From Tubiluchus corallicola (lineage: Eukaryota; Priapulida; Priapulimorpha; Priapulimorphida; Tubiluchidae): a stretch of 64,000 nucleotides of DNA. The notes below the pieces were generated by a model. The model made no database searches and had not been told where the DNA came from. It saw only the letters and a list, made by a program, of their open reading frames with translations. Positions 32,297 through 38,200 of the stretch are shown here, piece by piece. Each line of letters opens with the position of its first letter. The first letter of the stretch is position 1. A program made the translations under genes and the position numbers. The stretch is from assembly GCA_030141605.1 (NCBI GenBank), contig JAQGDQ010000260.1, positions 179,798-243,797 of the forward strand, given 5' to 3'.

Positions 32297-35200
32297 ATGT
32301 CAGATGATCGCTTTAACAGCAGAAACGTAAGATTTATAGATGTTACAAATTAAATTGCACGTTACATTATTTTCCCTAAGTTCATTGAGTCATCAATTAA
32401 CGTTGATCTGTAGCGTGATTTGCATGATATCATAAACAGTTATATTTTCATATTTTTATTTCAACTTGAAATGAAATATTAATATTTAAGTCAAAATTAT
32501 AGTAACAATTTTGTTAGTTTCTGGTAATTTTATTTTCGTTGTCTTAGTTAAGAATTACAAAATTTTATGTATAGAAAAACGGCGCTATTACACTTTCGCA
32601 CCGCCTAGCTTTTTCTAGGTTATTACTCGTTTTTAGGCTCGTACGTCATCATTCTATTATTCTTACGTCATCAGTGAATGTTTCCGCTAATCTAATTATA
32701 ATTTAATCATATATATAGGTATAATTACCAATAATTACGCTGTATTCACAGTTCTACACCTATACAGGGCATATCGCCATCTTGTTTGTATGTGTAGTCA
32801 CGTGACGAATTTCGTACTAGTTTATGCATTATCAGGGCCTAGCTTAAAAGCACGTGACACACTTTCATCTTCACCGCATTTACGAAAATAAGAAAAAACC
32901 TTTACTTTTTTTATAGTAATAATACTACAGTAATAAATAAAATTAATGATAAATAACTGCAGTGGTCTAAAATAATTTCCCGCGATACGATACAAACTCC
33001 CGTGGCTGCAACCCTAATAATCATAAATTATGCGAAGAAACTAAAAATATATGTTAAGGGCCACATCGTCACTGCGAGAGAGCGATTGCGCATTAGTGGT
33101 GTAAACACAGTTATGCACGTGGAGCTTTTTGCATAATGCCGGCGGTAAGTAATGTATGATTTTAATCTGATTTTAATCTGGAATTATAAAGCGTAAAAAG
33201 CAATAATATTATGGGAATATGGTGTATATTATATTATATTATGTATATTATATTATACCTGTTGGTCTGCTTTCTGGCCTGCAGGCGTGAAAAGAACCAA
33301 TAGGCCAGGAAAAGCTAGGCGGTGCGAAAGTGTAATAGCGCCTAGAAAAACACAGGCAAATGAAATACATAATTTAATGAAATAACTTTTTTCTTTTTTA
33401 ATATTATTACAATACATATATTTACGGTTTATATATATGTTTATATATATGTGTGTGTGGGTATACTTCTGTTTATATACAATTAATATGTAATTACAGA
33501 ACTGCATAATACTAATTTAATACTCGGTTTGGGGTGGCTGATTCGATAACTAATGTTTTTCGCCACATCTTCCCATTTATTTGGCTTTTTTTTATTTGTA
33601 CCTATTTTTCTTTGTATTGTTATTGGGATGAAAAATAAATGATTTGATTTGATATGATGCTTTAGACAGTAAAACGCCTTGATTGTTCACATTTTGTCTA
33701 AGTAGCTGAGCATCATTATATGTGTCACTGTCACTCGATCGGTTCAATGATTCAATATTACTAATAAAATAATTATTAAGATACATCCAGTTTCCTTATG
33801 ATGTGTTAAATATTAGGATCTTTTGAAGCATTGGTTTTGCCAGTCATTTCACCTGTCATAGTCTGGCAGTGCTGGATGAACTTTGTGCTGTGATCGTGTA
33901 ATTTAATCACGTTTATGATTATTTTAATTATTTAGGTTTTGTATTTTTATGTGTTCTTTCTAGTTGTAGCTTAAAATATAATTTCATAAGAGCACACAAT
34001 TTCTTATTAGATTTAAATTGGCCATTTAAGTAAAAAAAAATAACTTGTATAACCTCATGTTTTTGCAATGTTGTGCAATTGTATGTAATTTGTTGTACTT
34101 TGTATTTGTTCTTGCACTTTGTTTTTTTGTATTTTATGTAATTTTATTTTTTGTCATGGTACATTATTGTGTTTGTGCTATAAAATTGAATTGAATTGCC
34201 ATAAACATGACCTTTTGTTGTCACTTGATACATTATGGTTATTGTTTTTACTGTTTTGTAATGCTATGTAAAATTATTTATGCATTTCCTTTCCTTCGAT
34301 GTAATTTAGTTATAAAAATCTAATAACTATAGTTTTTCCTTCATTAATTGACTATCTCAAATGTAAGGTAATAAACAAAAGTTGGTTTTTCTTATTTAGA
34401 TGTGCAGCATTATTTGTTATACTAACACGATGCATAAATTATGTTAACTCAATGTATATTTTTTTCGATGCTGTGTGACAGGATGCCGATAGAAACAGAA
34501 GCACAGAACAGTTTCGCAAGCTTTTCATTGGTGGGCTTAACTACAGGACAACAGAAGATGCAATGCTCAACCACTTTCAAAAGTATGGAGAGATTGTAGA
34601 TTGCGTCGTGATGAAGGATGCATACACGAGACGCTCACGTGGTTTTGGCTTTGTCACTTTTCGAGAACCATCTGAATTGGAGGATGCTATCAATGGCGCA
34701 CCACATCGACTGGATGGCACTGAAGTGGATGTGAAGCGAGCCGTACCAAGAGAAGTGAGTGAACTGAATTTATTAAAGATTCAAATTCAAAGATTTGAAT
34801 TTAATTTAATTTGAATATTAAGGTAGAGTTGGTTAACATGTTACTACAATAATAACTTCTGTTTCAGTTTAAGTACAAGTAATGCGTTACATTACTAACA
34901 ATTGCAATCACTCCAATTCGGCAAAGGCTTTTATTGCTACTTAACGATCTTAATTCAGAGTTCAGCAAATTTCTGTTAAGAAGTGTTTCCATTGTAGTAT
35001 CTTGTTCAGCCTGTACGACAGGAAGAATTAGCTTCCTGTAAAATACTAGGTGGCTTGTTTGGGGTGCAAACCTATTAGTATATAACACCAGTAATGCAAA
35101 TTATGCATGAATTCCTTTTCTTATTAAGCTACCTTGGCTTGGATTTTGTATTTTTTATTCGTTTTACCTCATCTGAGTTCTTTGTGACATACTGTTTCAT

Positions 35201-38200
35201 AAGGTATTATTCATTTTATTTACCCTGATGTTGTTGGCAGATTAAATATTCTTTAATAGAAACAGATTGGGCTAATAAATAACTTAATATTTTTCGGTAT
35301 ATTTTCTGAACCCAGTAAATTAAGGCCTTTCTACAACAACAAAAAATATTTAATTTTGACTTAAATATAGCTCATATAAATATATATCAGCATAGCTGCC
35401 AGCTGTACCAGAAAGCAAAAGGTATTAGATTCGAGTTCCCATTGTACTTTATTATTGCTTTTATGTATCTGCACGATAAACTAATTGATAATTGACCAAT
35501 TCTTTATGAATGTTTTTTAACGAATTTATTACGTAATGTACGGTGATTGTAAAGGCAGATAGGTGGGAATTGTGCTGTTCTGTACATACATTAGTTTTTT
35601 TTAAAATACTTTTGTATGCACCTGCTATTTTGTAAAAACTTTTTTTGTTTTTAGTGGCCCCAAAGGTTAGTCCCGTTCCTTTACAACATGAGTAATACGA
35701 TAGATTTCTTAATTTTGGTATCATTTTCCTAGGAAGGTGGAGGGACTAGCAGCGATCAGAATGCTGAACAGTTTCGCAAACTTTTTATTGGCGGGCTCAA
35801 TTACAACACTACAGAGGAGACACTCAGAAAGCACTTCGAACAGCATGGAGAGCTGCTCGATTGTGTAGTGATGAAGGATGCCAACACGAAGCGGTCCCGA
35901 GGATTTGGTTTTGTCACATTCAAGACAGCAGATCAGCTGGATGAGGCAATGAGAAACAGACCTCATGTAATAGATGATAAGGAGGTGGAGCCAAAGCGTG
36001 CCGTCCCTCGAGAAGTGAGTGAGGGGTGCTTCTTGAAATGTTTTAGCTTGCATTTCTTGAGAAAGTCTGTGTCCAGAAAACACTGTTCTTATGCTAATAT
36101 GTTGCTCCTTAGTAAGCCTTTTTATAGTTTTTTTAGACATTATGCGCACAATAATTACCCAAATGATAAACAGTGTTTTTACACAACATTATTCATAACA
36201 CCGGCGAATACCCACCGTTCAATGTTCAATAATAGTACAGTCAGTCTTCGCTTAACGACTGTATTGCATTCCAGCAAAATGCAACGTCAAGTGAAAAGTT
36301 GTTAAGTGAAACCAAAACTTTCATAGAGAGTAATGTAAAAGAACTGAGATAGACTCCACAGGCAAAATCAATGCTGCTTAATTCATAGAGATTAAATGTT
36401 TTATGAGTTTTATTCATATTTCTACTGATTAATTTCTTTCTGTTTGCTTGAAACCACCTATCTTTCTTTTCTTTGAGTTTTAAATCCGCGTTATTTATTT
36501 TATTTTTTTTTATTTCATTTGTTTATTATAGAAATCCAAACTTATTACAGTTGCTTACCGATACCTAGCCATACTACCGATACGTACGATTTTACTTTCG
36601 TTAACATTGAAGCCCTACGCTATTAGCAGTTAAAACTGCATAGTAAAAGCCAAGATCTGGGGTAGCCTTGGTACAGTTTTGTCTAGATACTGGTTGTTAT
36701 AGTAATAGGTTGCATGCAAAATTCCTTTGCATAAAGGTGCCTGGAGGCTTGTAAATCACAAATAGATGCAATATGACTAGGTAAAAAAGTTGTTGCTTAA
36801 ATAAAAAATTGTTTCGTTCAAAGTAAAAAAGATCGTTGTTACATGCGTCACAAGTGAGAAACAGGTGTCAAATGTTCAGCATTGTTAAACTGTCTTTAAG
36901 GTGAGGACTTACTGTAACAGAAGAAACGAGATTATACTAGATTGTGTAGAAGAGCATCGCCATCACAGTGCTTATGCAATAGCTATTAATACTAGCGGTG
37001 ATGCCAAATGGCTAAAATAATTATTGGTGAAGTGATTTCCAATCCTCATGCACATTCATGTTGAAACTGCTGTAGCCCTGCTAACCACCCAAACCTCTCC
37101 ATTCGTTAACAAAAGCTATTTTGCTATACTTATTGATAACACTTATTATTGCACAATGTGGTATTTCTGTATTTTTTAATACCACTGGTAGGGTTTTTCT
37201 TAGCAAATTCTACAAAACTATTGTGATACAAAAAAGTGAAAAACCATTTAACATTTATTGTTAGTACTTATTCTAAATACATATTTTTTAGTTATGAGTG
37301 ACACTTAATTCTTACTAGCTGCATAAAAATCATTTGCAGGATTCTGGTAAACCCGAAGCACAATTGACTGTCCAGAAGATATTCATTAGCAGTATCAGAG
37401 ACGACACTGAAGAGCATCATTTACGAGACTATTTTGGCGAATTCGGCAACATAACCGATGTCAACATCGTTTCAGATAAAGTCACGGGTAGAAGACGTGG
37501 ATTTGCTTTTGTTACATTCGATGACTATGATGTTGTTGACAAAGTAGTATGTAAGTGTTAAACGTGTTTTTTTACAGTAAACCTTGGGTATAAGGTACTC
37601 GCCTGTAAGGGACGCTCGCTTATAAGGGACCACAACACTGGTCCCGATTTTTCACAACGTTTTTTCTATGTGAATATCTTCGTATACAAGGTACTCGGAT
37701 ATAAGGGACTTTCGGTTATAAGGGACGATATCTTCAGGTCTCGCGTAATAGAAACCCAGGAAATTACCTCGCATATAAGGGACCCTATGATAAAAGCGAA
37801 ATTGATCGATTTTTAACCTCAATTTTTCGCAAACTCGGCCTTCGGACAGCTCGGTTTCCATGGTCACATATATACTTGCATCAGGAGATACAACTCGCTG
37901 GATCTACATACGGTTTGCACTGAATGTGTAGCAATAATCCATGAAAATGTGGGTGAAAATACAGGTCTGGATACACCCTCGGTGTAACTGAACTTCGGCT
38001 ATAAGATACATCGGATATAAGGGACGGTTATTTTTCCTCTCCCGAGGTGTCCCTTATATCCGAGTTTGACTGTATTTTAGCTGGATAAGTGACTTGCTAA
38101 CCAAAAGTTAACAAACGGTTGCTCCTGCCAGGAAGATATGTTAATTTTGGCGTAAAGAAGAATGGTAAGTACTTGATATCACTAGCAAGTTAATTGTCCG

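Follow-up and report, generated by a model that had tools for sequence, protein, structure and literature searches.

The hnRNP A/B gene examined here carries, between its first coding exon and its RRM2, two tandem exons (A and B) that each encode a whole RRM1, and a second hnRNP A/B gene of the same genome repeats this arrangement. The tandem, phase-matched pair proposed in the sequence-only reading proved to be real. We consider that there is about an even chance that A and B serve as alternative RRM1 modules, one of which would usually enter each transcript.

Structure of the gene

The gene lies within the window, that is, the whole stretch of 64,000 nucleotides that was analysed. Re-reading of the sequence reproduced the coordinates, phases, splice sites and translations previously given for exons A and B, and the following features were assigned.

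32297..32326, plus strand: first coding exon, 10 aa, phase 0, donor gtaaga
34482..34754, plus strand: exon A, whole RRM1, 273 nt, 91 aa, phase 0-0, donor gtgagt
34755..35732, plus strand: A-B intron, 978 nt, ordinary GT-AG
35733..36014, plus strand: exon B, whole RRM1, 282 nt, 94 aa, phase 0-0, donor gtgagt
37340..37550, plus strand: first RRM2 exon, 211 nt
38855..38992, plus strand: end of RRM2 and beginning of the RGG/Gly-rich tail
39492..39566, plus strand: Gly-rich exon
39730..39804, plus strand: Gly-rich exon
41809..41955, plus strand: Gly-rich exon
42084..42215, plus strand: exon with a candidate 17-residue M9/PY-NLS-like stretch, read by eye
43150..43172, plus strand: last coding exon, ending ...YGGTSRY stop

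The A/B pair sits between the first coding exon and the RRM2 exons (37340-37550 and 38855-38992), and its members share the 13-residue N-terminal hook and the exit KRAVPRE that had been described for them. Their acceptors read ...gacag/GAT (A) and ...cctag/GAA (B), and their common donor, GAA/gtgagtga, scored 4.28 in both exons within a range of 2.30-6.70 for seven donors, the weights being approximate. Both exons are in frame with the first exon and with RRM2 (phase 0-0, as had been stated), both lengths are divisible by three, and every exon combination is in frame. The joined exons were open to a single terminal stop, yielding 367 aa with A only, 370 with B only, 461 with both and 276 with neither, in agreement with the 461 aa earlier calculated for a three-RRM form. 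A search of the A-B intron for an alternative first exon, running from an ATG to a phase-0 GTRAG, gave no candidate.

Family assignment

Both exons matched Pfam RRM_1 (3e-18 for A and 8.7e-20 for B). In the PDB, the best sequence relative of exon A was hnRNP A2/B1, with A1 next, and for exon B these two ranked the other way round. The RRM2 exon of the window showed 33% identity to A and 41% to B in partial alignments. Judged by sequence, A and B group with the RRM1 of hnRNP A1/A2B1 and not with the RRM2 exon of the window, and the gene displays features of the hnRNP A/B family, namely the A1/A2B1-related RRM1, a second RRM past a short linker and a Gly-rich C-terminal tail. Fly Hrb87F and Hrb98DE are named as homologues of hnRNP A1 and A2/B1 in one report (PMC13253536). 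Two scans of viral contigs yielded no relatives, the sole relative among genome contigs was one bacterial RRM (33%), and the window had no Rfam match at gathering thresholds.

A second gene with the same layout

The genome of the species itself (343.5 Mb, 2344 contigs) was searched with RRM2 and exon B as queries, the match counts being lower bounds. Among the matches listed, the best relative of RRM2, on the contig here called C1702, was 64% identical and the next one 38%. Exon B gave at least 16 matches, of which the top four were A, B and the two RRM1 exons of the C1702 gene, A' and B' (61-100% identity, E ≤2.6e-32); the fifth-best had an E value of 2.4e-14. Neither a fifth hnRNP A/B RRM1 exon nor a retrocopy with spliced junctions was present among the 16 listed matches to exon B. 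The hnRNP A/B gene on C1702 repeats the layout of tiny first exon, A', B' and RRM2.

C1702, first exon (e1'): tiny, MGGDRG
C1702:231771-232043, minus strand: A', 273 nt (the same length as A), phase 0-0
C1702:229272-229562, minus strand: B', 291 nt, phase 0-0
C1702:227865-228075: RRM2'

The introns of this gene measure, in order, 2932, 2208 and 1196 nt, and their similarity to those of the window gene was limited to matches of 14-20 nt with E values of 0.008 or weaker. A and A' both begin with Asp and have Val86, B and B' both begin with Glu-Gly and have Pro86, and the EQFR hook is gone from A', which reads EDYC.

Constraint and divergence

A tblastn search of the window with exon A recovered exon B (1.9e-35). 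The two exons are identical at 53 of 85 residues, 26 of these 53 being encoded by different codons, and over the 85 aligned codons pN was 0.22 versus a pS of 0.63; the corresponding values were 0.20 and 0.93 for A-A', and 0.12 and 0.81 for B-B'. In a neutral simulation that began from B, placed all change on one copy and used equal base changes, 53 identities were reached in 0 of 2000 runs at each of four branch lengths. From these comparisons, A and B are both judged to be under protein-level constraint (purifying selection). Sites departing alone from the other RRM1 and two human proteins numbered 12 in A and 2 in B (binomial p=0.013); by this measure A is the faster copy and B the slower, conservative one.

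Order of the duplications

The A/B exon pair probably predates the duplication of the gene, an order that is favoured with moderate support by the AU rejections under the codon and protein models together with the equal length of A and A' and the type-specific first residues. Of the 79 core residues, three separate AA' from BB', one separates the exons by gene and one divides them the third way. The codon model preferred AA' versus BB' (by-gene grouping: AU 0.042, KH 0.118, SH 0.123). With LG+G, to which two human rows were added, the by-gene grouping gave AU 0.009, KH 0.066 and SH 0.122, the best tested tree being one in which A joins A', with B and B' as a ladder (own-tree support 60-62%). 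Nucleotide GTR+G preferred the third topology and rejected none (by-gene AU 0.433), and the third topology was rejected by none of the three models (codon, protein, nucleotide).

The converse, that the exon pairs arose separately in each of the two genes, would accord with that GTR+G result, obtained with synonymous sites near saturation (pS 0.64 to 0.93 over the six pairs), with KH and SH values that did not reject it in any of the three models, and with the identity of A' and B' at 62 of 79 residues, which B and B' equal. Such an independent origin is nevertheless improbable: the AU test rejects it under both the codon and the protein model, the position, the phase and the length of A are common to both genes, and the first residues and residue 86 follow the exon type.

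Residues of RNA contact and of the RRM1-RRM2 interface

The sequence-only reading had proposed that A/B choice would switch the RNA specificity of one protein. The RNA-contact residues of hnRNP A1 RRM1 were taken from PMC5503513, and Phe17, Asp42, Arg55, Phe59, Lys87, Val90 and Arg92 are kept in both A and B, Phe23 is Tyr in both, and Glu85 is kept in B and replaced by Asp in A. Pro86 is kept in B and is Val in A. At 18 positions, whose main roles came from the same source, A differed from human A1 at three (23, 75 and 85) and B at one (23). The proposal gained little support: apart from Glu85, A and B agree at the reported contacts, and a specificity switch through RNA contacts was set aside as the main A/B difference.

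By comparison of the same sequences, the more telling change in A is that of Arg75 to Ala. In hnRNP A1, two salt bridges link RRM1 with RRM2, and the R75:D155 pair is one of them (PMC11235170; PMC5503513). Arg75 is present in B, A' and B' (three of the four exons), Arg88 in all four, and the positions of Asp155 and Asp157 are kept in the RRM2 of both genes, as aligned by eye with the human protein; A with Ala75 would thus have lost one of the two bridges. Human hnRNP A1 interface mutants, including R75A/D157K, repressed SMN1 exon 7 more weakly than the wild type (PMC5503513), and R75D/R88D lowered binding (PMC11235170). Since these published mutants are multiple, we infer the effect of Ala75 alone. 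Arg88 in A and A', Arg75 in A' and the kept Asp155 and Asp157 mildly fit a packing of A-type exons on RRM2 in a part of the transcripts; the Ala75 of exon A mildly fits the opposite, an RRM1 domain freed from RRM2.

The RNP2 of RRM2 itself reads IFISSI in the window gene (37340-37550), and IFVGGI in both the C1702 gene and human A1; given this sequence, the binding of the window gene's RRM2 may be altered.

Search for devices enforcing exon choice

A and B are similar in length, alike in phase, compatible in splice sites and homologous, the properties by which mutually exclusive exons are predicted. As had been remarked, the 978-nt spacer provides no device for steric exclusion. A clash between U12 and U2 introns was rejected, the A-B intron being GT-AG, with U2-type donors on A and B (by eye), and so was exclusion by frame shift, since A and B are multiples of three and double inclusion is in frame.

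Competing intron pairing was assessed only as ungapped stems against shuffles. In the window, the best stem was reached by 17 of 100 shuffles for intron 1 with the A-B intron, by 5 of 100 for intron 1 with the B-RRM2 intron and by 44 of 100 for the A-B with the B-RRM2 intron; the same three pairings in the C1702 gene gave 16, 22 and 9 of 60. None of these stems thus stood out clearly from the shuffles. In the first pairing, the best stem joins 32482-32499 to 35351-35368, an inverted match that is perfect over 18 bp. A 15-bp complementarity, perfect except for one G-U, links intron 1 to the B-RRM2 intron (33827-33841 / 36361-36375) and encloses A and B; of the three tests, one bore on it, and 5 of 100 shuffles attained it. 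UAG autoregulatory motifs near the exons were in no clear excess (six motifs in nine overlapping regions), and only pyrimidine runs exceeded shuffles upstream of A (0/300) and in intron 1 (1/300).

By homology to UP1, the ends of A and B appear to fall in the linkers around RRM1, and a single-sequence fold of exon A (helix-strand-strand-helix-strand-strand), although of low confidence (mean pLDDT 65), agrees with such linker ends. Of the regions encoded by human mutually exclusive exons that were mapped to structures, 87% were embedded in secondary structure, according to PMC5740500. With the ends of A and B apparently in linkers, a structural reason for exclusion is missing.

Use of the two exons

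The history that we propose would begin with an ancestral hnRNP A/B gene whose RRM1 exon was duplicated in tandem before the gene itself was duplicated, both descendant genes keeping both exons. A transcript would usually take A or B and join it to the same RRM2 and Gly-rich tail, and mutual exclusion, as far as can be predicted from the exons, is possible. The two resulting proteins would both bind UAG-type RNA and would differ in the tightness of RRM1-RRM2 coupling and in the beta4 strand reading the base before AG. Because no structural forcing device was found and double inclusion is in frame, we propose that the choice may be made by trans-acting splicing regulators, possibly the hnRNPs themselves. 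In human hnRNP A1, RRM1-RRM2 coupling governs RNA affinity and splicing repression. The fuller proposal of an ancient splice-encoded switch, in which A/B choice would keep UAG recognition and tune the coupling, is tentative and on balance doubtful. The ranking of the readings of exon use is a matter of judgement and was not computed.

A constitutive use of both exons, giving a three-RRM protein of 461 aa (RRM1A-RRM1B-RRM2-Gly tail), is less probable than alternative use. In its favour, every junction is in frame, the exon ends apparently lie in linkers, neither A nor B has unusual-looking splice sites, Arg75 is lost in exon A, and B and B' open with a Gly-rich stretch that could act as a linker. 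An RRM placed away from RRM2, however, need not keep Arg88, as A and A' do, or Arg75, as A' does, and the failure of a search of open-licence literature to turn up a three-RRM hnRNP A/B protein speaks weakly in the same direction. That B is constitutive and A an optional cassette, so that two-RRM and three-RRM forms coexist, would suit the conservative character of B and the in-frame combinations, but A-type splice sites look as good as B-type ones in both genes (partly by eye), and we regard this as unlikely. The faster evolution of A notwithstanding, its being a decaying relic out of use is scarcely credible, in view of its open frame, intact splice sites, preserved RNP motifs and contact residues, the failure of every neutral simulation to reach the observed identity, and the intact A-type exon of the C1702 gene.

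Other features of the window

Intron 1 contains a MITE-like element (32581-33342) whose 58-nt inverted ends are 83% complementary and begin GGCGCTATTACACTTTCGCACC, with TAGAAAAAC on each side. In the RRM2 intron, a TATAAGGGAC-type unit occurs several times within 37580-38065, in both direct and inverted orientation, and downstream of the last coding exon a 65-bp unit is repeated three times with a 95% match (44436-44630). Elsewhere were found two neighbouring single-ORF genes with a Gly_transf_sug domain, alike by eye (57479-58546 and 60133-61218), a Bax1-I exon (7737-8006), and on the minus strand a weak reverse-transcriptase match of 19 bits, below the Pfam cut-off (1317-1832).

Comparison with known systems

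Proteins of the hnRNP A/B family regulate splicing globally, and how their two RRMs are coupled is being actively investigated; for human hnRNP A1, designed mutants such as R75A/D157K and R75D/R88D have served this purpose (PMC5503513 and PMC11235170). The natural, probably long-kept pair of RRM1 described here includes one with Ala75. If A and B are alternatives, they would form a natural isoform switch that would test the purpose of RRM1-RRM2 coupling; if both are included, the result would be a three-RRM hnRNP A/B architecture, of which a search of open-licence literature furnished no example. No report of duplicated RRM1 exons in hnRNP A/B was found in that search, and a three-RRM or a two-isoform protein may already have been annotated. 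In vertebrates, the variety of hnRNP A/B lies in separate genes; were the switch true, splicing of just two genes, each with a pair of RRM1s, would supply such variety.

The window gene resembles hnRNP A1 and A2/B1 in the order RRM1-RRM2-Gly-rich, in a candidate PY-NLS-like end (by eye for the window gene), and in the RNA-contact residues and most interface residues. It differs from them in having two RRM1 exons where they have one RRM1, and in the absence of Arg75 from exon A. Each RRM1 lies within a single exon, whereas that of human HNRNPA1 is interrupted by an intron.

Similar length, same phase, splice-site type and homologous sequence are the WebScipio criteria (PMC3228551), and A and B share all four with exons of that type. 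They differ in that their ends apparently lie outside the fold, no docking/selector pairing was seen, and their exclusive use is putative. A further parallel is U2AF1, an RRM-type splicing factor that, like the window gene, has tandem duplicated exons (Ab and 3). The U2AF1 exons encode part of a domain, and their joint inclusion upsets the reading frame, whereas A and B each span a whole domain and stay in frame however they are combined. For the duplicated exons of U2AF1, alternative use is known (PMC5224494; PMC6821156).
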